Source: Arthrobacter sp. H16F315 (lineage in GTDB: Bacteria > Actinomycetota > Actinomycetes > Actinomycetales > Micrococcaceae). From it: 64,000 nucleotides of DNA. Shown in pieces: positions 26,854 to 41,323 of this stretch. Under the pieces are notes generated by a model. The model was not told where the DNA came from. It ran no database searches and saw only the letters and a list, made by a program, of their open reading frames with translations. A program made the translations under genes and the position numbers. The number at the start of each line of letters is the position of its first letter. The stretch's first letter is position 1. The DNA is taken from the NCBI RefSeq assembly GCF_024124825.1, contig NZ_JAMXSS010000002.1, positions 372,001-436,000 of the forward strand, written 5' to 3'.

Positions 26854-28101
26854 CTAGCTGGAGCCGGTTGCGGCTGCCGCCAGGCCGTCGATCCGCTTTT
26901 GCGGGGTGGCCGGCGAGTCGAGGCTGAAGGCGCGAAAGTCGCCCAAGTCCGCACGGATCCACTCCTGAACTTCGGCGATCCGCCGGATCACGGCGGCCGT
27001 GGGCCGGTGGAACACCCACGGAACGATCCGTTCCTTCCCGGGATCGTACTGCCAGAGCCCGATGATCCGGCCCCGGTCGAAAATCGGATGATCCGGAAGG
27101 TCCGCCTGAAGGGCAAGCGAACCCCTCGTCATCAGGTGCCGGTCCTCCTCGGCCAGCATTTCCGCCGCGTTGCGCCGCAGGAGCGTTAATGAGTCGGTTC
27201 CGGCGAGCAGTTGGATCTGCTCGCCGGCTGGCTCCTCGAAGGCCGCGAGGCGCCCGACGTCCGCGGGCAGCATCCACAGCGCCTCGCCGGCGGCAGTGGC
27301 TACTTCCGCCGCGCCCGCTGCCGCAAGCGCCGCCTTGCTCTGGGCCACTGTAAAAGCCGTGAACCATTGTGACTGCTTGAACGTGGCCCCTCCGGTCCAG
27401 CCGAGGTAGCGACGGATCAATTCGGTGCGGGCTTCGTCATCGTCGATCTGGCCCGGCGGCAAATTCCACAGGTCATAGGCGTAGCGCTGCTGGTCCAGGC
27501 GTCCGTTGGCCGGAACCCGGCGGATCCGTCCCTGCGACTGCAGGATTCCCAGTGCCGTGGGCAGCGTGGTGGCGGCGCCCTTCTTTTTGCCTTCCTCCCC
27601 GAGGTTCCGCACCGAATCGCCCAACTCCTCCTTGAGTTGCCGGGGGTCCATCGGGGCTGCTGCCTCGGCCAGAGTATGGAGCACCTGCTCCTCCAGCAGT
27701 GTGATTTCGCCGCGGTCCACACCGAGCCTGCCGAGCACCTTGACCGCGGACTCGGCCGCATCCCGGCCGAGCCGCAGCGCCCACGCAAAGTCGTCCCGGC
27801 CCATAACGTAGGTGCAGCCGCGCGCAGCCGGGAGTTCCAGGATCCGGCGCGCCAGGACATCGGCGTCCGCTTGTTCGCGGCGGATTCCGGCCCGGGCAAA
27901 GAGTGCGAGGTAGGGGTTGGCGCCACCCACGGAGCGGGCCCATCCGGCCCGGGCGAACACCTGCTCCGCGGTACAGCCGGTCAACGAGCCGTCCAGTCCC
28001 TGCTTGTGCCAGGCCCACGCGCGCAGCCGCTCCCGGGTGAGGGTCCTGGCCGGCGGCGTGTTCGCCGGCAGTGGCTGCATAGTAAGTGGCTCGGGGGTCA
28101 T
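26854..28101 (-). CDS. Winged-helix DNA-binding protein of the AlkZ/YcaQ-like family
   Basis: 415 aa. The family, named for the HTH_42 domain, includes DNA glycosylases such as AlkZ that unhook alkylated bases or cross-links. Seen here are the tandem winged-helix pattern (ITLLEEQVLHTLAEAAAPM, AATTLPTALGILQSQGRIRR) and a C-terminal beta region with FDRGRIIGLWQYDPGKERI. The KQSQW segment in the middle could correspond to the family's Gln-x-Gln catalytic motif, but I cannot align it with certainty. An alternative ATG is at 28080. Confidence 0.78.
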   Translation of the reverse strand: MTPEPLTMQPLPANTPPARTLTRERLRAWAWHKQGLDGSLTGCTAEQVFARAGWARSVGGANPYLALFARAGIRREQADADVLARRILELPAARGCTYVMGRDDFAWALRLGRDAAESAVKVLGRLGVDRGEITLLEEQVLHTLAEAAAPMDPRQLKEELGDSVRNLGEEGKKKGAATTLPTALGILQSQGRIRRVPANGRLDQQRYAYDLWNLPPGQIDDDEARTELIRRYLGWTGGATFKQSQWFTAFTVAQSKAALAAAGAAEVATAAGEALWMLPADVGRLAAFEEPAGEQIQLLAGTDSLTLLRRNAAEMLAEEDRHLMTRGSLALQADLPDHPIFDRGRIIGLWQYDPGKERIVPWVFHRPTAAVIRRIAEVQEWIRADLGDFRAFSLDSPATPQKRIDGLAAAATGSS

Positions 28102-28276
28102 GGGGTCATTGTCCCCCTGCCGATGCGGCAGGGGAATCTTCCACGGCAGGCATTTTCCGGCGGTCCGGCCGTCGGCGGCCCGTCCGGACGCTCCGGTCTC
28201 AGCATTTCACCCGGACCGGCCCCTGGCATCCCAGCCGGGCAGACCGTTCCCGTCAAGAAGCCTGAAGAAATATCAC

Positions 28277-28304
28277 AACCCCGGTAAATCCCCTCGCCGG
28301 GGTT
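28277..28304. repeat. Inverted repeat next to a -35-like box, upstream of the secreted-protein genes
   Basis: AACCCCGG (28277-28284) and CCGGGGTT (28297-28304) with a 12-base loop, directly joined to TTGACA (28303-28308), a perfect -35 hexamer. No good -10 follows at 17 bp. It could be an operator or an upstream terminator. Confidence 0.4.
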
Positions 28305-28374
28305 GACAAGGAGCAGGCAGGCAGACAGTGTCAAGCATGGTTATTCCATTTATTGGATAAAACAAGGAGGATCC

Positions 28375-28712
28375 ATGAAAAAGAAGGCTCGTGCCGCTTT
28401 GGCTCTCATTACGGCCTGCGCTTTAGCACCGATCGGGATTGCGGCCTCTTCGGCCCCCGCCAGTGCCGCCAACTTGGGGCACTGCTCATCATTGACCCTC
28501 GACAGGGTCTCGTACTTCCCAAACCACGATTACGTGGTTGGCTCCTGCGTACCCCCAACAAGGGCCCGGGCGCTCGACTTATGCTTCGCGTCGAATGCCA
28601 CGTGACCGGCTGGAGGAACGTGTACGTCACGCTCAACTATGGGGCGTCGTTCCGCGTCGACTCCGGGTGTGGAGGATGGGGCGCCCGCCAGGTTACCTAC
28701 AGTCCGACCTAA
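28375..28712 (+). pseudogene. Small secreted four-cysteine protein, paralogue 1, broken by one frameshift
   Basis: ATG 28375 has a perfect AAGGAGG site. A signal peptide (MKKKARAALALITACALAP ... ASA) is followed by CSSLTLDRVSYFPNHDYVVG. The frame breaks in the C run 28552-28556; one more C continues it as PPNKGPGARLMLRVEC and NYGASFRVDSGC to the stop at 28712, about 112 aa. The restored protein aligns with the next gene, sharing CSSL, VGSC, YGxSFRV and four Cys with similar spacing (second to third Cys 16 residues apart in both). Two disulfides are likely. I do not recognise the family. Confidence 0.7.
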
Positions 28713-28723
28713 GGAACAACTTG

Positions 28724-29038
28724 ATGAAAAAACTTCGTACGCTCACGGCCTCCATCGGCACCGTGGCCCTCAGCGCAATGTTCCTTATTGGTGCACCGGC
28801 ACCAGCAATGGCCGGCGTTGGTGGATGCTCATCACTGGCGGCCGACGGGCAATACATCGTGGGCAGCTGCACCGCCAACAACCCCGGCCCCAACGCAACG
28901 ATCACCGTGGCTCATTCTTGCTTCGGCCTAAAAAACGGCGCAAGCATCCGCAAGACGATCACAGTGGGCTACGGATCATCCTTCAGGGTGAAATCTTCGT
29001 GCTGGACCTGGGTCACACAACTGGATCGCGTCGGATAA
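28724..29038 (+). CDS. Small secreted four-cysteine protein, paralogue 2
   Basis: 104 aa, ATG 28724 with AAGGA upstream, 11 bp after paralogue 1. The signal peptide (MKKLRTLTASIGTVALSAMF ... AMA) yields a mature protein of about 74 aa beginning GVGGCSSLAADGQ. Cys residues lie in GGCSS, GSCTA, HSCFG and SSCWT. The mature part is mildly basic, rich in Gly, Ser and Thr, and probably beta-structured (ASIRKTITVGYGSSFRV). Function unknown; a secreted antimicrobial or surface protein is possible but not shown. Confidence 0.8.
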   Translation: MKKLRTLTASIGTVALSAMFLIGAPAPAMAGVGGCSSLAADGQYIVGSCTANNPGPNATITVAHSCFGLKNGASIRKTITVGYGSSFRVKSSCWTWVTQLDRVG

Positions 29039-29165
29039 CGTCAAGGGCCGACAAAAACGAGGTGGCACTGCCCGAGTCGGCCACTCGACGCCCGCCTGCC
29101 GTGTTCGGCAGGCCCAGCGAATAGCAGTTTCTAAAACCAACTGATCAACACGATGGAGATCAAAA

Positions 29166-29402
29166 TTGAAACGTAAACTGATCGCTTACCTGGCTGCCCC
29201 TGTGGCGGCTGCGGCGGTATTTATTGGTGGAGCGCTGCCAGCACAAGCGGCCACGCCCCGGGTGTCCTATTACTCATCCCTTTCCCAGTGTTCCCAGGCT
29301 GCCGACTACTTCAGTCAGCGCGGCACAATCGTGCAGTTTTGTACCGCCGATGTCTACATAAACGGGAAGCCGTCCAGGTGGCGATTGATGTACAACCTGT
29401 AG
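29166..29402 (+). CDS. Small secreted protein, 78 aa, two cysteines
   Basis: TTG start at 29166 after GGAG. Signal peptide (KRKLIAYLAAPVAAAAVF, ending LPAQA) and a short mature part of about 49 aa with SSLSQCSQAADYFSQRG and IVQFCTADVY. The two Cys could form one disulfide. It differs from the two paralogues upstream but shares their size, export and position. No family recognised. Confidence 0.7.
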   Translation: MKRKLIAYLAAPVAAAAVFIGGALPAQAATPRVSYYSSLSQCSQAADYFSQRGTIVQFCTADVYINGKPSRWRLMYNL

Positions 29403-29550
29403 GAACCGGGCCACACGGCACATTGGCGTTGAACCAGCCGGCGATGATCAGAAAGTACGCGGGCGGTTAGCCTCGTAAGCCTGAATCACGCGGCTGCGAA
29501 TTGGACGCCAGGAACCCGGAGCGCGGCAGGCCCGCCGGAGGCAGGGAGCG

Positions 29551-29984
29551 TTAAGCTGCACCCTGTTTTCGGCCGGCGCCGGAGTCCGGGCCGGCCTCGA
29601 AGTCGAGCGTGTAGCTGGCCCACGCGTCTGGGGTTTCGCGCAAGGTGACCTCCAGCCCGGCGAGCTCGCGCCCGTCCGCACCGGTGCGGATCCTGGCCGC
29701 TACGGCGTCGGCGATGTACTGGGCCAGGGCCTCGGTGGTGCTGAGCCTGGCGGCGAAATCAGGGTGCTCGTCAAGGTTCTTGTAGTTCAGGCCGTCAAGG
29801 ATGGAATCCAGCACGGTGCCGGCCTCGCCAATATCCACAACGATCGAGTCGGCGTTTAGGGTGCGTCGGCGGAAGGTCACTTCCGTGACGAAAGTGGCAC
29901 CGTGCATCCCTGGGCGGGCCCGAAAGCAGGGCGCGGGAGGCTGTGGGCAATCATAAAGTTGCGGCGGACGGTCAGGCTGAACAC
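29551..29984 (-). pseudogene. 6-carboxy/6-pyruvoyl tetrahydropterin synthase family protein (QueD-like), broken by one frameshift
   Basis: The N-terminus starts at GTG 29984 (preceded by GAGG) and reads FSLTVRRNFMIAHSLP, with the first zinc His of the family. The rest continues in another frame from MHGATFVTEVTF, with a zinc His in HGATF, and DIGEAGTVLDSILDGLNYKN and LSTTEALAQY. One more G at 29908-29910 (C on the plus strand) joins the two as GPAQGMHGATF, about 144 aa. The actual pterin-type substrate is uncertain in such actinobacterial homologues. It lies 44 bp after a zinc-type dehydrogenase gene on the same strand. Confidence 0.82.
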
Positions 29985-30028
29985 GGATTTACCTCGTGGC
30001 TTCTGTGGTGGCTGGCTTCACGGATTTG

Positions 30029-31038
30029 CTATGCACTCGCCGGGTATTCAATAACGTGGCAGAGCGCGTCCAGTACGCCGTCGGAGAGCTGCTGGACGAC
30101 GTCGGGCAGCTCCGCGAGCGGAGACGAGCCGGTGAGGAACACCTCGAACGCGGGATCGCTCAGCAGAGCGACGGCGAGCCGGAGCCGGTCGGCGTTGGTG
30201 CGGCGGTGGCGGCGCGCACGGGCCACAACGCCCACCTGGCTGGCGCGGATGGACAGCCTGCGGGCGTGGAAATCTTCGCCCAGCGGGACGCTAACTTTAC
30301 GGTCGGCGTACCAGGACATTTCAATGACGTCGCCGTCGTCGCCCGCGAGCTGCAGGGCTCGCTCAAGGCCCGCTTCCGAAGCGGAGCAGTGGATAACGAT
30401 GTCGCAGTCGCCCAGGGCATCGTCCGGGTGGCTGAACTCCACGCCGAGCGTCTCGGCGAACGCCCGCTTGGCCGGGTCGACGTCGATCAGCTGCAGCCGT
30501 CCGAGTGGAAAGGAGCCCAGGAGCTTGGCCACCATGCCGCCGACGAGGCCGGCGCCGATGACGGCGACGCGGTCACCCAGGCGCGGACCGGCCTCCCAGA
30601 TCCCGTTGATCGCGGTCTCGACGGTGCCGGTCAGCACGGCGCGGCGGGCCGGTACGTCCGCCGGAACCACGGTGAGTGACTCCACCGGGACGATGTACAG
30701 GTCCTGGTGCGGGTACAGGCAGAATACCGTTTTGCCCGCCCAGTCCACCGGACCCGCCTCGACGATGCCGACGGAGAGGTAGCCGAACTTCACCGGGGAC
30801 GGGAAGGAGCCTTCCTGGTTAGGGGCGGCCATTTCCTCCGCCACGCACTCCGGTACGCGGGCGTTGTGGACCACCAGCTCGGTGCCCTTGCTGATGCCGG
30901 AGTAGAGGCTCCGCACCAGCGCCTCGCCGGGCCCGGGGGCCGGCAGGTCCTCGCGCCGGAGCTCCCCTTTTCCAGGCCGACCGTCCAGTAAGCGGTGGCG
31001 GTGCTCTGCTGCGGTGGTTGCTCGTCTGAATTGCTCAT
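30029..31038 (-). pseudogene. Zinc-type (MDR) alcohol dehydrogenase family protein, broken by one frameshift
   Basis: ATG 31038 starts SNSDEQPPQQSTATAYWTVG. The frame breaks in the C run 30964-30967; one more base gives GLEKGELRREDLPAPGPGE and continues with RSLYSGISKGTELV. The Rossmann fold is at VAVIGAGLVGGMVAKL with the acidic end in LQLIDVDPAK. The usual GHE zinc motif is not visible (GISKGTE stands there), so catalytic zinc may be absent. The restored length is about 336 aa. It is probably co-transcribed with the pterin synthase-like gene; this pair recurs in actinobacteria in a pathway not known to me. Confidence 0.82.
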
Positions 31039-31188
31039 CTTGCTGACGAATCTAGTCCCCTACCCATGCGCGGGGAAGCCCGGGCCATCCCGGGCGCGCC
31101 GCCGCCAGCGGTCCCGGGGCGGCGTTGGGCGATCTGTCGGGGTGCCGTTTTGTGCATCAGCGCTTGGCTCCGGTAACCTATTCAGGTT

Positions 31189-31276
31189 GGTGACGTGTCC
31201 GAGCGGCCGAAGGTGCAACACTCGAAATGTTGTTTGGTGAAAGCCAACGTGGGTTCAAATCCCACCGTCACCGCCA
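31189..31276 (+). tRNA. tRNA-Ser (anticodon CGA)
   Basis: Acceptor GGTGACG pairs with CGTCACC, discriminator G, CCA encoded. The anticodon stem CAACA/TGTTG closes the loop CTCGAAA with anticodon CGA. A long variable arm (TTTGGTGAAAGCCAA) is typical of class II tRNA-Ser. Confidence 0.96.
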
Positions 31277-31281
31277 ATGAG

Positions 31282-31325
31282 AAAGGCCCTGCTTCCCTTG
31301 CAAACAAAGGGAAGCAGGGCCTTTT
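31282..31325 (+). terminator. Terminator of tRNA-Ser
   Basis: A 17-18 bp perfect stem (31282-31299 with 31307-31325), short A-rich loop and TTTT tail, directly after the tRNA. Confidence 0.9.
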
Positions 31326-31416
31326 GCTTTGACCTGGATGGACTCATCGGCAAAGAACTGGCAAAACTTGCCGTCCTGGGGTTGCGGCAGCCCTTGTTGA
31401 CCGGTGACAACATTCA

Positions 31417-31690
31417 ATGACGTACGACGACCTGGAACTCCTCTGCCCTTAAACGCTCTCCATCTTCGCTGCGGCGGCGCTTATGCTGATCGGTGGTCTC
31501 ATCCACAGACGGTCATCCGGCCCCCGGCCGATGTCCCGCTATCTCTTCGGCACGATTGTCGGATCGATTCTCTACGCAGTGTTCGCTGGCGTCCTTGCCG
31601 CTAGGACGTTTCCGCCGCCGTACGACCCGTACCTGCAATCGGGCCGGGGACTCGATCTGCGCGGAATCGGCTTCGTTCTGGGCGGCTTGA
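31417..31690 (+). pseudogene. Remnant of a small membrane protein gene
   Basis: ATG 31417 reads MTYDDLELLCP, then a TAA, then in the same frame TLSIFAAAALMLIGGLIHRR and a second hydrophobic segment GTIVGSILYAVFAGVLA. After about 31690 the frame runs antisense into the next gene. Either the real start is the ATG at 31483 or the gene is disrupted. The family is unknown. Confidence 0.3.
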
Positions 31691-31706
31691 AACAGCCAGC
31701 CGGCTA

Positions 31707-31937
31707 TCACCGGTTGCCGCGGCCAGCTCCAGTCCGGAGCGCGCGTTCGAGCAGGACCAGCCGGGCAGCCCAGAACACGAACAGGAAAGCACCAACTGCC
31801 AGGAGCAAAGCATTAGGCCAGCTGAAACCCCGATCCAGCAGCCGGAACCATGCCGGGCCGGCAACCGTCGTCGAAACGAAGATCCCCAGCCACCCGGCCA
31901 GCCGCGTGCCATAGCGTTCGGTTGGCGTCTTCTCCAT
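31707..31937 (-). CDS. Small membrane protein, 76 aa
   Basis: Two hydrophobic helices (GWLGIFVSTTVAGPAW and ALLLAVGAFLFVFWAARLVL) between charged ends. It starts just after the broken ABC ATPase gene on the same strand. It may be the remaining part of an export/immunity unit; no family recognised. Confidence 0.5.
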   Translation of the reverse strand: MEKTPTERYGTRLAGWLGIFVSTTVAGPAWFRLLDRGFSWPNALLLAVGAFLFVFWAARLVLLERALRTGAGRGNR

Positions 31938-31950
31938 CAGTCCCCCTGCA

Positions 31951-32266
31951 TCATTGAAGTACGGTGCCGCCCTTGCGGGCTGTCGACGACACGATGCCTA
32001 GCCCATCGATCTCGTCCAGTGTTGCCACAATGGCCGCACAGGACTGCGGTGAGCCGGCCTGGGTCTCGCCGTGCCAAAACACCTGCTGCAGTCGGATTCA
32101 TCAGTCCACAGAGAATCTTCAGGAGGGTCGACTTCCCGGCCCCGTTCGGACCGAGCAGACCGACACACTCGCCCCGGCCAATACCAAAGGTCACTCCTGC
32201 GATTCCTGTTTTCTGTCGATACCTCTTTTCCAGGCCTGTCACTGAGACGATTGGTTGCGCGGCCAT
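31951..32266 (-). pseudogene. Truncated ABC-transporter ATPase
   Basis: ATG 32266 opens a normal ABC ATPase N-terminus: [19 protein letters not shown] and Walker [20 protein letters not shown]. After LMNPTA the similarity stops; no Q loop, LSGGQ signature or Walker B remains. A tail in a shifted frame ([16 protein letters not shown]) runs to a stop at 31951, while the start frame runs on to 31937. Most of the catalytic domain is gone, so this is a real deletion and not a one-base error. Confidence 0.7.
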
Positions 32267-32270
32267 AGTA

Positions 32271-32468
32271 TTAGCTCCGCTTCCGCAGGAGTCCGATGAA
32301 AACCCCGAGCACAACCAGCAGGATCAGGCCGACAGCCAACGTAATGCCCAGGAGGACGGGCTGGGTGCCAGTCACGGCCAGCATCGCGGTCAGGCCGCCC
32401 AGCGTGGCTACGAGGGCACCAAGTACGGCGATAAGGGGGATGGTTGCCTTGCCTTGCGTCATTCGCAT
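32271..32468 (-). CDS. Small two-helix membrane protein, 65 aa
   Basis: Starts at ATG 32468 (or 32462). Two hydrophobic stretches, [20 protein letters not shown] and [20 protein letters not shown], end in LLRKRS. It lies between the RiPP-like precursor and the ABC ATPase, four bases from the latter, so it may belong to transport or immunity of that peptide. Not a recognised family. Confidence 0.6.
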
Positions 32469-32552
32469 CGTCGCTCTTTTCTGCAATTTGATGTCGTGGG
32501 AAATGCCTGTGGGGCGGAAATAAGACGTCCACCCCCACAGGGACAATCATTT

Positions 32553-32699
32553 CTAGGTGATGGCTACGCCGATGCCGACCCCGCCGTAAACAAGACCGCC
32601 GCCAACAACTGCGCCTACGCCGATTCCGGCAACCCATTCGCCCCATCCGGGCGCGTCGAGCTCTTCACGCTGCTCAATCTGAGCGAGTCGGTTCTCCAT
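32553..32699 (-). CDS. Candidate daptide-type RiPP precursor peptide, 48 aa
   Basis: This ORF is too short for common gene finders. ATG 32699 has GGGGAG and AAGGA upstream. The peptide begins MENRLAQIEQREELDAPGWG, a hydrophilic leader with an EELDAP motif, and continues as a Gly/Val/Ile/Ala-rich hydrophobic core ending in GVGIGVAIT. A leader of this type, a helical hydrophobic core and a C-terminal Thr are features of daptide precursors, whose last Thr is converted to a dimethylated diamine. The modifying genes (dehydrogenase, aminotransferase, methyltransferase) are not in the window, so it may be an orphan or remnant. The identification is from motif memory. Confidence 0.6.
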   Translation of the reverse strand: MENRLAQIEQREELDAPGWGEWVAGIGVGAVVGGGLVYGGVGIGVAIT

Positions 32700-32734
32700 A
32701 GTCCTTAACTCCCCTCAGAAGTAGAAGGATGCAA

Positions 32735-32753
32735 TTGTCCATTCGCTGGACAA
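32735..32753. promoter_or_regulatory. Inverted repeat upstream of the daptide-like gene
   Basis: TTGTCCA-TTCGC-TGGACAA, a perfect 7-bp palindrome with a 5-base spacer, 36 bp before the start codon, in promoter position. Confidence 0.5.
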
Positions 32754-33395
32754 AAAGAGAATCTAACAGACCGAACGTGAAGCCCTGCCGCAGCAGGGCC
32801 GACACTCCTCATGTGACTTGCAGTTCGCCGGGGAGCATGAAATAACCCTGACGCCAACGGAGTGGTAGCTGCCAGAACTTGGAAGGCACGAGGATTCCGA
32901 CCTAGCCCGGCCCGGAAGGATGCCGCTGCCATGGCCATCCGGCCGTAGAAACCCCAACCGGTTCAGCTTTCAGCGAAACTACGCACTGCGCGGCTCAGCC
33001 CAGCCGCGGTCGCGGGGAATGTCGCGGAATCGGCGGTACGGCCCGGTGCCGGCGTCGAGAATTGCCTAGGTGTCCGTTCGGGTCGAGAACGACGAAACCG
33101 AACTTCTCGACCTTATTGCCACGGTTGCGAAGATCGCCGGGGGAGCTCTGATGGGTCACGGATCTGAACGCTGGCGATGCGGCGCCGTTGGCCGCACACG
33201 CGCAGCAGCTGCTCTGCACCCCCGGACAGGTCGTGCACCATGCGGCCACCACCTATCGCGGAGCTGGCAAAACCGACGCGAAGCCTCCAACCGGCTCGTG
33301 CTGCGGATCAGGATCAGATCAGCGCTGAGCTGCAGCTGCCCACTGCCCGTCGAACGGATCTGATGTGTGCCCGGGATCTTTGCTGGCGCCCGCGC
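32754..33395. other. Gene-poor stretch, probable gene debris
   Basis: No reading frame here has a convincing start, ribosome site or recognisable domain. Short open stretches on both strands change frame repeatedly (for example near 33070-33300), as in decayed genes. I see no insertion-sequence ends. Confidence 0.5.
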
Positions 33396-33599
33396 CTAGC
33401 CCGCCGGGTGCGCGACGTCCTCCAGCACCGTCCGGTCGAAGAAGCGGATTTCGCCGGTTTCCGGGAAATACACGGGAACAACAGAAGTGCTGGGGTCCTT
33501 CGAAGTTTCATAGATTTCCGGTGCACCGCCATGCCTGCGGGCAATCGTTCCGACTAGATCCGTACCGCGGACCGTGACGGTCCGGTATTTGTAGCTCAT
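33396..33599 (-). CDS. Small conserved hypothetical protein, 67 aa
   Basis: ATG 33599 with AAAGGAG upstream. The sequence MSYKYRTVTVRGTDLVGTI and VVPVYFPETGEIRFFDRTVL looks like a small beta-rich soluble protein. No signal peptide, no Cys. Divergent from ppsR. Function unknown. Confidence 0.65.
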   Translation of the reverse strand: MSYKYRTVTVRGTDLVGTIARRHGGAPEIYETSKDPSTSVVPVYFPETGEIRFFDRTVLEDVAHPAG

Positions 33600-33697
33600 G
33601 GCGCTCCTTTGGTGACGTGGGACACAGCCTACTCTTCGGAGCTCGGCATGGTGCGTCGCGGAAGAATACCCGGCCCGCACTGGGGCACAATGCGTCT

Positions 33698-34516
33698 ATG
33701 ACCAATGACGCTCCACGCCCGGTCTACTTTCTTTCGGACAGTACGGGCATCACCGCAGAAACACTCGGCAACACCCTGCTGACTCAATTCCCTGAGAACC
33801 TTTTTGACCGCATCACGGTCCCGTTCATCACCACTGTCGACCAGGCCAGGGCCGTCGTCAAAGTCATTGACAACCTAGCCGCCACCGGGCTGCAGCCGAT
33901 CGTCTTCTCCACCGCCGTCGGCAGCGACATCCGCCAGGCCCTCGGCACCTGCCAGGGGATCATCGTGGATCTCATCGGGACGCACGTCGGCCAGTTGGAG
34001 CGGGCCCTCGGAAGCGAAGCCAGCGGCGAACCGGGCCGGGCCCACGGCCTGGGCAACGCAGCCCGCTACCAGTCCCGGATGGCCGCCGTCGAATACGCCA
34101 TGGAGCACGACGACGGGCAGAGCCTGCGTGCGCTCGAAAAAGCCCAGGTGATCCTGGTGGCGCCGTCGCGCTGCGGCAAGACCCCCACCACCATGTACCT
34201 GGCGTTGCAGCACGGCATCTTCGCCGCCAATTTCCCGCTGGTGGACGAGGATTTTGAACGCGAAGGCCTCCCCAAGCCGCTGCGTCCCTTCGTGTCGAAG
34301 TGCTTCGGCCTCACCACCAACCCGCTCCGGCTGAGCCAGGTCCGCACCGAACGCCGCCGCGGCTCGCCCTACGCGTCGCTGCGGCAGTGCGGCTTCGAGC
34401 TGCGCAGCGCCGAGCGGCTGTATGTCTCGCACGGGATCCCCTACCTGAATTCGGCCAGCGTGTCCGTCGAGGAAATGGCCGCCACCATCCTCCAGAAAAT
34501 GAACCTTAAACACTAA
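33698..34516 (+). CDS. ppsR: PEP synthase regulatory protein (ADP-dependent kinase/phosphorylase, DUF299)
   Basis: 272 aa. The family phosphorylates, with ADP, a Thr next to the catalytic His of PEP synthase or pyruvate phosphate dikinase and removes it with inorganic phosphate. Markers are the N-terminus [17 protein letters not shown], the P-loop [16 protein letters not shown] and the C-terminal [17 protein letters not shown]. The target gene ppsA follows on the same strand after about 150 bp, which fixes the assignment. Confidence 0.94.
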
Positions 34517-34665
34517 GGCGCCCATTCACTAGTGTTGCGTGGACCACATCAGCTGGAACCACCGGCGCGGACCTGTCACTGTGGACAGGAATTGCGCCAT
34601 CAACTGGCTGCCGCCCGAAGCGGGCCGCGGCACCGATTGCCACCATCTGCAAAGGAGCAGCAACC

Positions 34666-37065
34666 ATGACGACAGACATCCTGTGGTTCTCAGAACTCGG
34701 CCTCAAAGATCTGGACCGGGTGGGCGGCAAAAACGCCTCCCTCGGCGAGATGGTGCAGAACCTGACCTCTGCCGGCGTCCAGGTACCTGACGGGTTCGCT
34801 ACGACGGCAGATGCCTACCGCAGCTTCCTGGCCGGCTCCGGCCTGGACCAGAGGATTGCCGACCGGCTCGTCGGCCTGGATACCGATGACGTGACGGCGT
34901 TGGCAGCCGCGGGCCAGGAGATCCGAACCCTGATGCGCGAGACGCCCTTCCTGCCGGACTTTGAAGCCCAGATCCGCGCCGCATACCAGGCGCTTGTGGA
35001 AAAGCACGGGGGCTCCGACGACCTGTCCTGGGCGGTCCGCTCCAGCGCGACGGCGGAAGATCTTCCCGATGCCTCCTTCGCCGGGCAGCAGGAGACGTTC
35101 CTGAACGTCCGGGGCATCGAGAACATCCTGGTGGCCATCAGGGATGTCTTCGCGTCCCTCTACAACGACCGGGCCATCGCCTACCGGGTGCACCACAAGT
35201 TCGAGCACGCCGACGTGGCGCTCTCGGCCGGCATCCAGCGGATGGTGCGTTCCGACGTCGGCGCTTCCGGCGTTATGTTCACAATGGACACCGAATCCGG
35301 GTTCCAGGACGCTGTTTTCGTCACCTCCTCCTACGGCCTCGGCGAGGCCGTAGTCCAGGGGGCCGTTAACCCGGACGAGTTCTACGTGTACAAGCCCGCC
35401 CTCGAGGCAGGGCGCCCGGCCATCCTCAAGCGCGGCCTGGGTGAGAAGGCCCTCCAGATGACGTACACAAGCAACCGCGAAATCGGGCACACCATTGACT
35501 TCGTTCCGGTGGAGGCGTCCCTGCGGAACCGCTTCAGCCTTGACGACGACGACGTCGAGCAGCTCGCCCGGCACGCCGTCGCGATCGAGAACCACTACGG
35601 ACGGCCCATGGACATCGAATGGGGCAAGGACGGGATCGACGGCGGCCTGTACATCCTGCAGGCACGCCCGGAGACCGTGCAGTCCCGGCGCACCTCCGGC
35701 AGCCTGAGCCGATTCCGGCTGAACGGCTCCGGCCGGGTGCTGGTCGAGGGCCGCGCCATCGGCCAGCGCATCGGGGCCGGCCGCGTCCGGATCCTCACCG
35801 CGATTGACCAGATGGCCGCCTTCAAGACCGGCGACGTCCTGGTCGCGGACATGACCGACCCGGACTGGGAACCGATCATGAAGCGCGCCTCCGCCATCGT
35901 GACCAACCGCGGCGGACGTACCTGCCACGCGGCCATCATCGCCCGGGAACTGGGGATTCCCGCCGTCGTCGGCACCGGTGGCGCCACCGACGCCCTCTCC
36001 GACGGCCTTGAGGTCACCGTCTCGTGCGCCGACGGCGAGACCGGGCTGATTTACGAAGGGATCCTGGACTTTAGCGTCGAGGAAACCGAGATCACGCAGC
36101 TGCCCGAAGCGCCGGTCAAGGTCATGATGAACGTCGGCACCCCCGAGCAGGCGTTTACGTTCGCGCAGCTGCCCAACCACGGGGTGGGCCTGGCCCGGCT
36201 GGAATTCATCATCAACCGCCAGATCGGCATCCACCCGAAGGCACTGCTGAACATGGCCGACCAGCCCGCGGAGGTGCTGGCGGAAATCAAGGAGCGGATC
36301 GCCGCCTATGGCAGCCCGCGCGAGTACTACATCAAGCGCCTCGCCGAGGGTGTGGCGACCATCGCTGCGGCCTTCGCACCGGAACCGGTGATTGTGCGGA
36401 TGTCCGACTTCAAGTCCAACGAGTACGCGAATCTCCTCGGCGGACCGGCCTACGAGCCGCACGAGGAGAACCCGATGATCGGGTTCCGCGGCGCCTCGCG
36501 ATACCTGGAGCCGTCCTTCCGGGACTGCTTCGACCTGGAGTGCGAGGCCCTGTCCTTTGTCCGGAACGAGATGGGCCTGACCAACGTGAAGTTGATGATC
36601 CCGTTCGTGCGCACCGTGGATGAGGCCAGCGGCGTGATCGACCTGCTCGCAGAGAACGGCTTGCGCCGCGGCGAAAACGGCTTGGAAGTCATCATGATGT
36701 GCGAAATTCCGTCCAACGCGCTGCTGGCCGATGAGTTCCTGGACTACTTCGACGGCTTCTCCATCGGTTCCAACGACATGACCCAGCTGGCACTGGGCCT
36801 GGACCGGGATTCCGCGATCGTCGCCGGCAGCTTCGATGAGCGCAACCCCGCCGTCAAAAAGCTCCTCAGCATGGCGATCAAGGCCTGCAAGTCGCGCGGG
36901 AAGTACGTCGGCATCTGCGGCCAGGGCCCGAGCGACCACCCGGACTTCGCTGAATGGCTGGTCGACGAAGGCATCGATTCGGTCTCGCTGAACCCCGACA
37001 CCGTTGTGGACACCTGGATCCGGCTCGCCGGAGCCGCCGCAACGTCGCCGGCCGCGGCGAGCTAA
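34666..37065 (+). CDS. ppsA: Phosphoenolpyruvate synthase (pyruvate, water dikinase)
   Basis: 799 aa, full length. Converts pyruvate, ATP and water to PEP, AMP and phosphate. The N-terminal ATP-grasp part starts [20 protein letters not shown]. The swivelling domain carries [14 protein letters not shown] with phospho-His421, preceded by a Thr that is the usual target of PpsR. The C-terminal TIM-barrel has [14 protein letters not shown] and [16 protein letters not shown] with the catalytic Cys. Regulated by the neighbouring ppsR product. Confidence 0.96.
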
Positions 37066-37648
37066 GGTTCTTGCGCCAGTGCCGCGGGATGGGGTTTCGC
37101 GCCTTTCCCGCGGCCACTCGGAGTGATGACCGACCAGCAGCAGACCTGGCACGAGAAACACCAAGCCTCGCCCACCCAGGGCCAGCGCGCCAGCGCGCCG
37201 GCTACATCGAGGGCCTCGACCCAGGCGGTACACAGCATCGCCGGCGCTGGACTCCGGCGCTGGACGCTTGCACAAGACAGAACCGGCGTCACCGTCAATT
37301 GGTCCATTGAACGGTGGCAGCCACCCGGGGTTAGCTTGGAATCATCACCGTTCCGCACCAATGACGTTCAGGACCCCTCGTGACTTTGCAGCAAGATCGG
37401 GCCAGCGGCGCCCCGGCTTTGGACCGACGTACCACCCGGAGGCCGGCTCAAAGACCTGCCGGTTGACGAATTGTGCCCTGACGACTGCCACTTCTGCTCA
37501 GGACCCGAGACGGACTGACACCGGCCGGTTCCCGGGCGCCCAGCGCTTTCGCAGCCCGGTAGAATCCGCCGGTAGAATCGGGGGACAACCCGCAGCCGGC
37601 AACGCCCGCGGGAGCAACCATGGCCGCCGCTGGTGAAGGGAGTGTTCT
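37066..37648. other. Intergenic region with a weak hairpin and a tandem 11-bp repeat
   Basis: No convincing gene on either strand. A 9-bp stem (37081-37089 with 37106-37114) after ppsA may serve as a terminator. CCGGTAGAATC occurs at 37556-37566 and 37569-37579, so two -10-like TAGAAT boxes stand 13 bp apart before the next gene. Confidence 0.5.
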
Positions 37649-38403
37649 GTGCGCACAGCCGCCCGGGCACCATTCCACGCCCTGCGTTCTGCCATGGTGG
37701 CGCTCACCGTCCTGTCCCTGGCGGCGGGCGCGCACACGCTGGCCGGCGGACAATTGCCGGTGTCCGGCATCCTGCTGGCCCTCCTGGCCCTGACCGGGCT
37801 GGCCGCCACCACCGCGACCCGGCTCAAACTGAACCTGCCGGCACTCGCCGGGCTGTTGGGTGCCGGACAGCTGCTGCTGCACGAGGCCTTCACTGCCTTG
37901 AGCCCCCGGCCGTGGGCGGATCTGCGTCCGGGCCGGCCGGCCCCGTCGCGTCGCACCATCTTGCGGCGATCCCGCACTTCCTCGGCCCTGAGCTGCAGAC
38001 TGCCTCCACCGGCACGGCGGCCGAGGCCCCGTTTGTTTCGCTCCTGATGTTGGCCGGCCATGCGCTGGCGACTCTGCTCTGCGCCGTCCTGCTCGCCCGC
38101 GGCGAAGACGCCCTGTGGTCCCTCGCGGCCTGGCTGCGTCCCCTGCTCCGGCTCCCCGCGCCCGTAGCGCCCGACGCCGTTGCGGTTCCGGCTGTTACCG
38201 GCTGGCCCGCGGAGTGCGCACCGCTGCCGTGGCGGAACCTTCGGCGCGATAGCGGCCGCGGGCCCCCGCCGCCGTCCTTGTATTTTCCTGACTCCTTTCC
38301 CGGCCGCGGCCGCGACCGGCCCCCACCAGCGGGTCCGGATCATAAGCAGCGCCGCGCCACCCCCATTTTTGTGCGCCTGCCGCTGTGCTGCGCGCAGGCC
38401 TGA
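37649..38403 (+). pseudogene. Hypothetical membrane protein upstream of ycnI, broken by frameshift
   Basis: GTG 37649 opens a protein with three hydrophobic helices (ALTVLSLAAGAHTLAGG, GILLALLALTGLAAT, LAGLLGAGQLLLHEAF). The C run 37903-37907 interrupts it; one more C joins FTALSPPAVGGSASG and GPVASHHLAAIPHF, followed by a fourth helix LLMLAGHALATLLCAVLLAR. His residues near the second and third helices (LLHEAF, SHHLAA) and the YcnI gene 12 bp downstream suggest a copper-related role. The C-terminal tail after about 38160 is uncertain and may hold another shift. Confidence 0.6.
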
Positions 38404-38415
38404 AAGGCAACCCCT

Positions 38416-39198
38416 GTGAAGACCTTTTCCACCTCCGCCATCCGCCGCACCCTCTCCGGAACGGCCTTGGCCGGCGGAACCGCCGCGCTGATGCTTGCCG
38501 GCATCTCCGGCGCTTCCGCGCACGTCGGAGTAACCCCGGACACGACGGGCGCCAACTCCTACGCCTTGCTGACCTTTGGGATCCCGCACGGCTGCGACGC
38601 GTCCGGCACCACCAAAGTCACCATCACCCTCCCCGCCGAACTCAACGACGCCCAACCCACGGTCAACCCCAATTGGACGGCCGCCAAAGTCACCGAACAG
38701 CTGGCCGAGCCGAAAAAGCTCGCCGACGGCACCTCCATCACCAAACGCACCAGCCAGATCGTCTACACCGCCAAAGCCCCGCTGGATCCGGCCTTCCGCG
38801 ACGTCCTGGTGCTTTCGGTCAAACTGCCCGACGCTGCGGGCAAGACCCTGTACTTCCCGACGCTGCAGAACTGCGAGGTCGGCCAGACGGACTGGTCGCA
38901 GCTCCCCGCCGAGGGGCAGGACCCGCACGCGCTCAAGGCGCCGGCGCCGTCCGTGACGGTCACGGCGGCCGCTGCGGCCGACGGGCACAGTGCCCATGCC
39001 GCCAGCACCTCCGACGCCGCGCCGGAGGCGGTCCAGGCCACCGCGGTGAACGACGACGGAGCCCAGGCCCGCAGCTGGGCTGGACTGGTGGCAGGCGTCG
39101 GCGGGCTCGCCCTCGGCGGACTCGCCCTGGCCCGCAGCCGAAGCAACACCCCGGCGCCAGTTCGCACCCCGGCGCCCGCTTCCGCGGCCAGGGAGTAG
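38416..39198 (+). CDS. YcnI-family (DUF1775) copper-binding protein
   Basis: 260 aa. The signal peptide ends ...SGASA, leaving His as the first mature residue (HVGVTPDTT); YcnI proteins bind Cu(II) with this N-terminal His plus a Trp and Glu. The domain runs to QNCEVGQTDW, then a low-complexity linker with DGHSAHAAS, a C-terminal membrane helix (WAGLVAGVGGLALGGLALA) and basic tail. It sits outside the membrane and probably works with the membrane protein encoded before it in copper handling. Confidence 0.9.
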   Translation: MKTFSTSAIRRTLSGTALAGGTAALMLAGISGASAHVGVTPDTTGANSYALLTFGIPHGCDASGTTKVTITLPAELNDAQPTVNPNWTAAKVTEQLAEPKKLADGTSITKRTSQIVYTAKAPLDPAFRDVLVLSVKLPDAAGKTLYFPTLQNCEVGQTDWSQLPAEGQDPHALKAPAPSVTVTAAAAADGHSAHAASTSDAAPEAVQATAVNDDGAQARSWAGLVAGVGGLALGGLALARSRSNTPAPVRTPAPASAARE

Positions 39199-39210
39199 CT
39201 GACCCACGAT

Positions 39211-39240
39211 TGATGCCCGGAAATCACAATCCGGGCATCA
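39211..39240. terminator. Terminator-like hairpin after ycnI
   Basis: TGATGCCCGGA and TCCGGGCATCA, an 11-bp perfect stem with an 8-base loop, 12 bp after the stop. No T tract. Confidence 0.6.
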
Positions 39241-39300
39241 ATCGGACAGCGCTGCCGTGGCGTCGTTGACTCAGGCAACATCGGGCGTGAAGGTGGTGCC

Positions 39301-39942
39301 ATGACGGCTCAGCGAATCAACACCAGACTGGTATTTACGACGGCAGCGGCCGCGGCGGCACTCCTCCTCGCCGGCTGCGGCACCGGAACACCGCAGTCCC
39401 AAACGTCCAGCACTCCGGTGTCCTCCCCGGAAACCTCCGCCAGCCAGTCGGCCGGGGCGGCAGCTACCGCCCCCTCGGCCTCGGCCTCGGCCTCGGCACC
39501 GGCACCTTCCACCCCCGCGGGCCCGGGCTTGTGCAAGGCCGCCGGCCTGACCGCCACGACCGATGCCACCGGCGGCGGCGCGGCCGGCAGCGTCTACATG
39601 CAGCTGATCCTGACGAATTCCGGCACCGAACCGTGCCGGCTGGTGGGCTTCGCCGGCGTCTCGCTCACCGCCGACGCGAACGGTGCCCCGATCGGCGCCC
39701 CAGCGGCGCGGGACGAGTCCACGCCCTCCGCCGAAGTGCTGCTCGCACCGGGACAGGCCGGAACCGCCACCCTGCGCTACACGCAGGCCCGCAACTACTC
39801 GGACTGCACCCTCGTTCACGCGGCGGGCTTTCGGGTCTACCCGCCCGAGGACACCGCGTCCTTGTTTATCGCCGAACCACATGACGCCTGCAGCAACGCC
39901 GGCATCAACGTGCTGACCATCGGGGCGTTCACCGGCAAGTAG
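39301..39942 (+). CDS. DUF4232 lipoprotein
   Basis: 213 aa. Type II signal peptide with lipobox LLLAGC, then about 45 residues of Ser/Ala/Pro linker, then a DUF4232 beta-sandwich beginning LCKAAGLTATTDATGG with QLILTNSGTEPCRLVGFAGV and a paired Cys near the end (PHDACSNAG). DUF4232 lipoproteins are common on actinobacterial membranes; their function is not established. Confidence 0.87.
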   Translation: MTAQRINTRLVFTTAAAAAALLLAGCGTGTPQSQTSSTPVSSPETSASQSAGAAATAPSASASASAPAPSTPAGPGLCKAAGLTATTDATGGGAAGSVYMQLILTNSGTEPCRLVGFAGVSLTADANGAPIGAPAARDESTPSAEVLLAPGQAGTATLRYTQARNYSDCTLVHAAGFRVYPPEDTASLFIAEPHDACSNAGINVLTIGAFTGK

Positions 39943-39982
39943 CCCCACCGCACCGCGTGACTCCCAGCAGCCGGTGCTGCGC

Positions 39983-41323
39983 CTAGTCGGTGTCGCCGAG
40001 AACGGCCCAGCCGTAACCGTCCAGGGTAAGAGTGCCGCGGTCCGGATGCTTCCCGCCCCGCCCCGCCAGTAACGCGGCGGCCGAGGCGGGCACGGACACT
40101 TCCACGGGAGCGCCCGAGAGGTTCAGGGCTACCGTGAGCGAACCGCCGTCTCCGCTGGCCTCATAGACGAGGTGTTCGTTGCTGATTGTGAGTACCCTGG
40201 TGCGCGCGGAGTGCAGCCACGCGTGCCGGCGTCGGAGGCTGATCAGTTCCTGGTGCAGGTGGTAGACCGGCCAGCCAAGCCCGGCGAGCTCTGCCGGGGT
40301 GCCCGGGAAGGCCGGCCGGACCGCGTCGTCTCCTCCAGCCCGGTCCTCCTTAACACCGCGAAAGGCCTGCTCGTCGCCGTAATAGATCGACGGTGTGCCG
40401 CCCACTGTGAGGAGCACCGCCAGTGCCAGCGGCAACTGCTCCGGATCCGTCAGCCGGCTCGCCAGCCGGGTGACGTCGTGATTGCCCACAAACGTCAACG
40501 GGGTAAAGGTCGCCAGGAAGCCGTTGTGCCGCTCCAGCGCAGCGGCCAGTTCGTAGAAGTTGCCGTCATTCAGCGAACTCCACACGGCCTTCCAGAGTTC
40601 GTATTGGGTGACGGCATCGAGGGTACTTGCCTGCACTTCACGGGCATAGTCGCCGTGGATATATTCACCCACGAAGTACGCGTCCGGATAGTCACTGCGC
40701 ACCTGCGCCAGGACCGGTTTCCAGAACGACGGCGGCACGGCATACGCCGCGTCCAGCCGCCAACCGTCCGCTCCGCGCCCCAACCAATGCTTCATAACGT
40801 CCGCGACGAACTCGGCAACCTGGGGTTCCTCGTGGTTCAGCGCGACCAGGTGATGGTGGCCTTCGAAGTCCTTGTAGCCCGGCTCGACGCCGGGGGCCCA
40901 GCCGGCTTCGGGCCAGTCCAGCCGGAACCAGGAACCGGTGGGTGCTGCCGGACCGTCTGCAAGAACCTGGCGGAACGGCCCGAAGCTGCGCCCGGTGTGG
41001 TTGAAGACGCCGTCGAGCAGGACCTTCAAACCGCGGGCGTGGGCCTGGGCAACCAGTTCGTCGAAGTCGTTGTCGTCGCCCAGCCGCGGATCGATGCGGT
41101 AATAGTCAGTCGTGTCGTAGCCGTGCGATTCGGAGGCGAAGACCGGGCCGAGGGCCAGCCCGGAAGCCCCCAGCTCCACTGCGTAATCCAGCCAGGCGTG
41201 CAACCGGTCCAGGCGGTGGACCACCGGTTCCGCGGCGGTGCCTGCTGCTGCGTCGGCGCCGGTGAAACCCAGCGGATAAACCTGCCACCAGATTGCGTGC
41301 TGTACCCAGGTCGGCTCACTCAT
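39983..41323 (-). CDS. Alpha-amylase family (GH13) glycoside hydrolase
   Basis: 446 aa, no signal peptide, so probably cytoplasmic. GH13 regions are visible: DGVFNHTGRSF (I), GWRLDAAYAVP with the nucleophile Asp (II), YFVGEYIHGDY with the acid Glu (III), and FVGNHD (IV). A small C-terminal beta domain ends AVLGDTD. Likely acts on alpha-1,4 or alpha-1,6 glucans or maltodextrins. The gene stands alone. Confidence 0.92.
   Translation of the reverse strand: MSEPTWVQHAIWWQVYPLGFTGADAAAGTAAEPVVHRLDRLHAWLDYAVELGASGLALGPVFASESHGYDTTDYYRIDPRLGDDNDFDELVAQAHARGLKVLLDGVFNHTGRSFGPFRQVLADGPAAPTGSWFRLDWPEAGWAPGVEPGYKDFEGHHHLVALNHEEPQVAEFVADVMKHWLGRGADGWRLDAAYAVPPSFWKPVLAQVRSDYPDAYFVGEYIHGDYAREVQASTLDAVTQYELWKAVWSSLNDGNFYELAAALERHNGFLATFTPLTFVGNHDVTRLASRLTDPEQLPLALAVLLTVGGTPSIYYGDEQAFRGVKEDRAGGDDAVRPAFPGTPAELAGLGWPVYHLHQELISLRRRHAWLHSARTRVLTISNEHLVYEASGDGGSLTVALNLSGAPVEVSVPASAAALLAGRGGKHPDRGTLTLDGYGWAVLGDTD

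Follow-up and report, generated by a model that had tools for sequence, protein, structure and literature searches.

We found a locus in the 64,000-nucleotide stretch of Arthrobacter sp. H16F315 DNA analysed here (the window) that is very probably (about 93%) the remnant of a complete daptide cluster from a divergent, glycosyltransferase-bearing branch, with its precursor gene left as an unprocessed relic. We infer that no mature product is made from the window peptide, and a putative mechanism and order for the deletions are given below. The original prediction had read the precursor as daptide-like, and had offered an orphan precursor, a decayed cluster or another class of hydrophobic bacteriocin as explanations. 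The daptide family was confirmed because homologues of the peptide adjoin daptide maturation proteins in four relatives. Of the three options a decayed cluster is favoured, because sequence has been deleted, the genome lacks the enzymes and leader positions have changed.

The precursor ORF lies on the minus strand at positions 32699-32553, with an ATG start and, as had been predicted, 48 codons, an EELDAP leader, a hydrophobic core and a C-terminal Thr. Its product is MENRLAQIEQREELDAPGWGEWVAGIGVGAVVGGGLVYGGVGIGVAIT, which divides into the leader MENRLAQIEQREELDAP and the core GWGEWVAGIGVGAVVGGGLVYGGVGIGVAIT. The ORF is a fusion of two precursor genes, with about codons 1-40 from the first (A1) and the last codons and the stop from the second (A2). 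The branched-aliphatic core and the invariant C-terminal Thr of daptide precursors are both found in the window ORF, and the Thr is also present in the copy of a second genome of the species (G148) and in all four A1 and all four A2 peptides of the whole clusters described below. The leader motif reads QREELDAP in the window and QLEELDAP or QLDELDAP in the whole-cluster relatives. Compared with the ELExMEAP motif, the DAP end is kept and position -7 is altered (the Pro of DAP is numbered -1).

The NCBIfam and Pfam models alone would not decide the daptide identity of this ORF. The suggested check against daptide models gave a divided result: the best match was still the NCBIfam daptide precursor model NF041808 (16.4 bits, E 0.0055), but the score fell below the curated cut-off of 25 bits, and when all six frames of the genome were scanned, the ORF was the sole match and its E value of 0.93 was not significant. 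At E <= 1, the same model gives a six-frame match in 7 of 14 well-known control genomes. Against the cut-off of 25 bits, A1 and A2 of G180 and G182, two of the whole-cluster genomes, scored 24.7 and 13.9 bits and the G148 precursor scored 13.8 bits. The Pfam search of the 48-aa ORF found no family, and a weak match to F0F1 subunit c (E 0.42) probably stems from its Gly-rich hydrophobic composition. Judged by sequence comparison, the ORF is homologous to daptide precursors, and was recognised by eye below the model cut-off.

To find relatives, the peptide was searched against 206 genomes of the genus, including its own (G000), at E <= 0.01, and was matched in 12 of them. Full-length matches with 88-100% identity were identified in six genomes (G000, G148, G034, G168, G180, and G182). 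The five other than its own encode the peptide at 88-92% identity across all 48 residues, so the ORF is beyond chance, and the conservation that the original prediction had asked for was observed. G148 is a single contig and 99% complete; the assembly of the genome under study is 95.6% complete. A second precursor, A2, is located closely 3' of the first in four of the six (G034, G168, G180, and G182), and it was in these four that homologues stood beside daptide enzymes. The 50% matches in G019, G027, and G129 are canonical daptide precursors with an ELExMEAP-type motif, and the two of G027 score 32.9 and 24.3 bits with NF041808. Matches in G044, G191, and G195 (38-46%, inside frames of 269-296 aa) were rejected as chance, since the surrounding 20 kb holds no precursor motif and these genomes also have no RRE or dehydrogenase match. 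In the A2 precursors of five loci (L019, L020, L021, L022, and L036), SLDAA or SLEAA stands where A1 has its DAP or EAP leader end, with Ala replacing Pro at the usual cleavage position.

Whole counterpart clusters were identified in 4 of the 206 genomes: the MAGs Arthrobacter sp. RL56_bin.044 (G182, L021/L034) and Pseudarthrobacter sp. RM56_bin.062 (G180, L022/L035), Arthrobacter sp. fls2-241-R2A-200 (G168, L020/L033), and G034 (locus L019). The gene order in G180 (L022) is A1, A2, small membrane protein, ABC ATPase, permease, protease, family-2 glycosyltransferase, RRE protein, methyltransferase, aminotransferase, and dehydrogenase. The same gene set is present as open frames in G034, G168, G182, and Cellulomonas sp. 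PhB143 (L036). This Cellulomonas strain, which we take to belong to a different actinobacterial family, has an identical order from A1 through dehydrogenase at 34-55% protein identity. Five G180 proteins have a daptide model as their best NCBIfam match: the HExxH protease (NF041824, 344.9 bits, cut-off 300), the aminotransferase (NF041821, 437.3 bits, cut-off 450), the methyltransferase (NF041820, 167.6 bits, cut-off 175), the RRE protein (NF041823, 127.7 bits, cut-off 150), and the dehydrogenase (NF041822, 178.8 bits, cut-off 300). Because the protease alone exceeds its cut-off (1/5 enzyme models), we consider these clusters a divergent daptide branch, which automated mining may under-report.

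The pieces in the window have counterparts in the four whole clusters at 75-87% DNA identity. The whole clusters have every gene and two separate precursors, whereas the window has only the fused precursor and remnants. When the whole-cluster loci (11-20 kb) were compared with positions 28001-40000 of the window, the cluster sequence and no more than about 0.4 kb at the precursor end aligned. Since little beyond the cluster aligns, the chromosomal place appears to differ. Daptide clusters are frequent in the genus, with a protease above the cut-off in 35 of the 206 genomes and two such proteases each in G168, G030, and G031. The RRE gene is in two pieces in G027 and G031, and in G063 a dehydrogenase is accompanied by no more than a weak RRE fragment, while the protease model finds no match; these three may be further clusters that are decaying. 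A literature search, with the supplementary tables of daptide papers outside its scope, found no paper on a daptide biosynthetic gene cluster in Arthrobacter, and none on decayed or orphan RiPP precursors was on point by title or start of abstract.

Relative to a whole cluster, the window sequence shows at least three breaks. We searched it with the eleven proteins of the G180/G182 cluster and found matches only to A1 (residues 1-22), the small membrane protein, the ATPase (residues 2-87), and the aminotransferase (residues 302-344). The ATPase match begins ahead of the likely start and extends beyond the junction described below by a few residues. DNA comparison placed the first deletion, which amounts to 229 bp when measured against the G182 cluster, at an in-frame A1/A2 crossover (about 32573-32582, minus strand). 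Over codons 1-39 of the window precursor, 109 of 117 bases are those of A1 and 56 those of A2, and over the last 24 bases 23 are those of A2 and 19 those of A1. The sequence 3' of the stop corresponds to that downstream of A2, hairpin included, and the A1 and A2 stops in G182 are 229 bp apart, which is the size of the fusion deletion.

The second deletion removed most of the ATPase gene. Its N-terminal part of about 60 codons, with GPNGAGKST kept, was identified by homology to the cluster ATPase at 32086-32266 on the minus strand. Alignment to G182 places the junction at 32086-32088 (minus strand), where 6,704 bp in G182 coordinates are missing and the two sides share a 3-bp CAG overlap. Joined there in a different frame is an aminotransferase fragment of 43 codons (31960-32088, minus strand) with 79% identity to G180 residues 302-344 (E 1e-15). 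Cluster homology stops again near 31960, the third break, so the aminotransferase end and the dehydrogenase were lost by a further break. The 65-aa membrane protein and the ABC ATPase start at 32266, named in the original prediction as the neighbours of the precursor, are there, but the ATPase is a fragment joined to the aminotransferase fragment. RRE, dehydrogenase, methyltransferase, and HExxH protease genes are absent from the window, and the ABC exporter is reduced to the truncated ATPase with no permease match in the window. A 76-aa hydrophobic ORF after the aminotransferase fragment (31707-31937, minus strand) is kept in G148; it has no DNA match in the whole clusters and no family above threshold in NCBIfam or Pfam.

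Taken together, these data suggest the following history. The ancestor would have carried tandem A1 and A2 precursors, whose leaders were bound by the RRE protein. The terminal Thr would have been oxidatively decarboxylated, transaminated, and dimethylated, the intramembrane protease would have removed the leader, and the ABC pair would have carried the peptide out of the cell. For mpa of Microbacterium such chemistry has been published, and it is carried over to the ancestor here by analogy. Before the split of the two sequenced strains, the two precursor genes, which are alike at their 3' ends, may have recombined there to give the fusion. A deletion of about 6.7 kb, with its 3-bp overlap, would have taken most of the ATPase, the permease, the protease, the glycosyltransferase, the RRE protein, the methyltransferase, and the first part of the aminotransferase, and a further break the aminotransferase end and the dehydrogenase. 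The precursor ORF would have been left open without an enzyme, and has presumably drifted since, leader position -7 included.

Signals around the precursor are partly kept. The 7-bp inverted repeat TTGTCCA-5 nt-TGGACAA, predicted as a perfect palindrome, is present at 32735-32753, 35 bp 5' of the start, but among the six genomes compared it is perfect only in the two of this species. In the four whole clusters the box reads TTTGTCCA-[A/G]TGAA-TGGAT, a conserved but imperfect repeat. The good ribosome site of the original prediction was found on the minus strand as a Shine-Dalgarno-like GGGGAG 5' of the ORF, although the window sequence GAGGGGAGTT differs from the GGGGGGAGGT of the four whole-cluster relatives. 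A hairpin (CCTGTGGGG..CCCCACAGG; 32506-32541, minus strand) follows the precursor and is present after A2 in the four whole clusters. It has a paired change at one stem step in G180/G182 and one C fewer in the window than in G148, and may act as an attenuator between the precursor and the export genes.

We then compared the precursor between strains. Leader position -7 is Leu in all four whole-cluster A1 (4/4), Arg in the window, and Pro in G148, and position -4 is Leu in the whole-cluster A1 and the window and Ile in G148. In the mutational results on MpaA (PMC10036551), oxidative decarboxylation could not be detected for the Ala variants at -7 and -4. The G148 precursor also starts with GTG instead of ATG and has Asp in place of a core Gly. 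Between the window and G148, codons 2-40 carry 4 non-synonymous changes and 1 synonymous change, compared with 3 and 13 among three whole-cluster copies (Fisher p = 0.025); this rests on 5 versus 16 changes and excludes the first codon, codons 41-48, and the G180 copy, which does not differ from that of G182. These few precursor changes support, without proving, relaxed constraint. On the other side, the open ORF, the Thr end, DAP, and a usable start codon are kept in both strains, where a neutral relic could have been broken, though the strains are only about 3.4% diverged. Relaxed constraint is not visible in every piece, because the ATPase fragment has 1 non-synonymous and 3 synonymous changes between the strains and the small membrane protein has 1 and 0.

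This pattern bears on whether the fused, unmodified hydrophobic peptide was kept for a new use, such as a small membrane peptide, together with the small membrane protein beside it. The ORF, ribosome site, hairpin, and small membrane protein remain in both strains, which speaks for such a use, but the strain changes are mostly amino-acid changing (6 to 1 synonymous over the whole ORF), the core Gly is Asp in G148, and the start is ATG in one strain and GTG in the other. We consider a new use unlikely.

The small membrane protein itself (32271-32468, minus strand; 65 aa, hydrophobic) has an intact frame and two helices by eye. Homology identifies it as the cluster's small membrane protein, and it is a candidate immunity protein. 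It is 95% identical to its counterparts in G180/G182; those of G168 and G034 are 88% and 83% identical to G180's, and that of Cellulomonas (L036) 43% over 54 residues. In Cellulomonas as in all four clusters of the genus, it lies between the precursors and the exporter, a position that suggests self-protection. We found it in 7 of the 206 genus genomes, namely the six precursor carriers and G016, whose solo copy is 54% identical (L037 9668-9931, minus strand, G016:C4). No precursor was found near that copy, and the daptide models for the protease, RRE protein, and dehydrogenase match nothing in the G016 genome. The other local cluster match at G016 is a weak dehydrogenase-like stretch of 32 residues (40.6%, E 5e-4) in a 43-aa ORF on the opposite strand, which could be chance or a trace. 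One difference in 192 bases separates the window from G148 in this gene, compared with 3.4% over 3.9 kb of the locus; a single change is too few to speak for or against selection on it. A doubtful but conceivable reading is that the protein provides self-protection for the daptide branch, and that it is an orphan immunity gene kept against the daptides of neighbours as the precursor decays, the G016 copy likewise.

A functional orphan precursor, with its daptide enzymes at another place in the genome, would also explain the open ORF, the retention of most of the leader motif, and the C-terminal Thr. However, we found 0 matches to the RRE protein (at 1e-3) and to the daptide dehydrogenase (at 1e-20) in the genome itself or in G148. 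The protease model has no match in the genome itself and one in G148 at 111 bits, below the cut-off, and a below-cut-off protease is the best match in 107 of the 206 genus genomes (G148 and 106 others). No methyltransferase above the cut-off was found in either genome (best 30 of 175 bits) and no aminotransferase (best 259 and 207 of 450 bits), so the original prediction's search for the dehydrogenase, aminotransferase, and methyltransferase genes elsewhere gave nothing above cut-off. The below-cut-off aminotransferase matches include the window fragment, at 32 bits, and two class-III aminotransferases of 258.6 bits each in contig C4 (G000:C4:38321-39502 and 87384-88565); no match to this model in G148 scores 258.6 bits.

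Of the 206 genus genomes, 36 have a match to the RRE protein (31 above cut-off), 38 to the dehydrogenase at 1e-20 (33 above), and 142 to the protease (35 above). The 14 control genomes gave 0, 1, and 4 genomes with RRE, dehydrogenase, and protease matches, none above cut-off. General aminotransferases and methyltransferases are available in the genome to an orphan precursor, but below-cut-off matches to these two models are not diagnostic because both match 14/14 controls, none above cut-off. A missing enzyme could lie in a gap of the 95.6% complete assembly, but G148 is one contig and 99% complete. With leader position -7 altered in both strains as well, an orphan precursor, one option of the original prediction, is highly unlikely.

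G148 also speaks to the assembly. Similar 3' ends of A1 and A2 can presumably mislead assemblers, so a cluster that is whole in the organism might be collapsed in the sequence. However, the single contig of G148 has the identical fusion and junction with the same flanks. Around the locus it aligns over stretches of 9.6 and 8.4 kb, with 96.6-96.7% DNA identity, and the pieces have diverged between the two genomes (3.4%; 133/3,881 over the 3.9 kb compared), so that an assembly artefact is barely credible.

The decayed cluster lies between the tRNA-Ser(CGA) gene (31189-31276) and a gene at 33701 that we take to be ppsR. Among relatives (29 genomes searched, own included), the closest ppsR is that of G141 (96%). 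Both flanks recur there on a single contig, but the roughly 14 kb between them (L055 3414-17549) is other sequence, and none of it matches the remnant at the DNA level. The tRNA-Ser(CGA)-ppsR interval therefore varies between species, with about 2 kb including the relic here (31331-33397) and about 14 kb of other DNA in G141. The flanks of about 1.5 kb at 13 ppsR loci (L051-L053, from other families, excluded) gave no match to the remnant, and a search of the window for a further exact copy of the tRNA 3' end found none. The G+C content of the remnant is 59.6%, compared with 66.9% in the window. Two further features were observed nearby: about 208 bp at 31378-31585 are absent from G148 and adjoin the repeated terminator-like sequence AAAGGCCCTGCTTCCCTT, and three small ORFs in a row at 28360-29402 (plus strand), with signal-peptide-like starts (MKKKARAALALITACALAP.., MKKLRTLTASIGTVALS.., MKRKLIAYLAAPVAAAAVF..), may be a tandem family of small secreted proteins.

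The below-cut-off, genome-wide non-significant NCBIfam match and the weak F0F1 subunit-c match might point to a chance ORF or to a different class of hydrophobic bacteriocin. Both readings were rejected because five genomes conserve the peptide at 88-92% and in four of them the homologue stands beside daptide enzymes.

The remnant illustrates how a RiPP cluster can die: its precursors fuse, its enzymes are deleted, and its leader changes at a position on which recognition depends in a characterised daptide. It also points to a glycosyltransferase-bearing daptide branch in Arthrobacter-group and Cellulomonas genomes that is poorly covered by current models, and it cautions that lone precursors should not be counted as producers.

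We compared the locus with characterised daptide systems. The mpa system (Microbacterium paraoxydans DSM 15019, PMC10036551) and the relatives have an ELExMEAP-type leader, a hydrophobic core, a terminal Thr, and multiple precursors. mpa and the whole-cluster relatives share the RRE protein, Fe-alcohol dehydrogenase, aminotransferase, methyltransferase, intramembrane protease, and ABC transporter. The whole-cluster relatives differ from mpa in the added family-2 glycosyltransferase and in scores mostly below the NCBIfam cut-offs. Because PMC10036551 already names glycosyltransferases among the occasional tailoring genes of such clusters, finding them here is not in itself a novelty. tfDap and saDap (PMC12670281) are like the relatives in the core enzymes and the C-terminal Thr chemistry, but both carry YcaO and tfDap also LanKC/LanJ-type tailoring enzymes, none of which is among the eight larger proteins of G180. 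Compared with mpa, the window has only the fused precursor, the small membrane protein, and two gene fragments, with leader position -7 altered. On this sequence evidence, the locus truly belongs to the daptide family, is non-functional so far as one can tell, and is of a kind that is already known.
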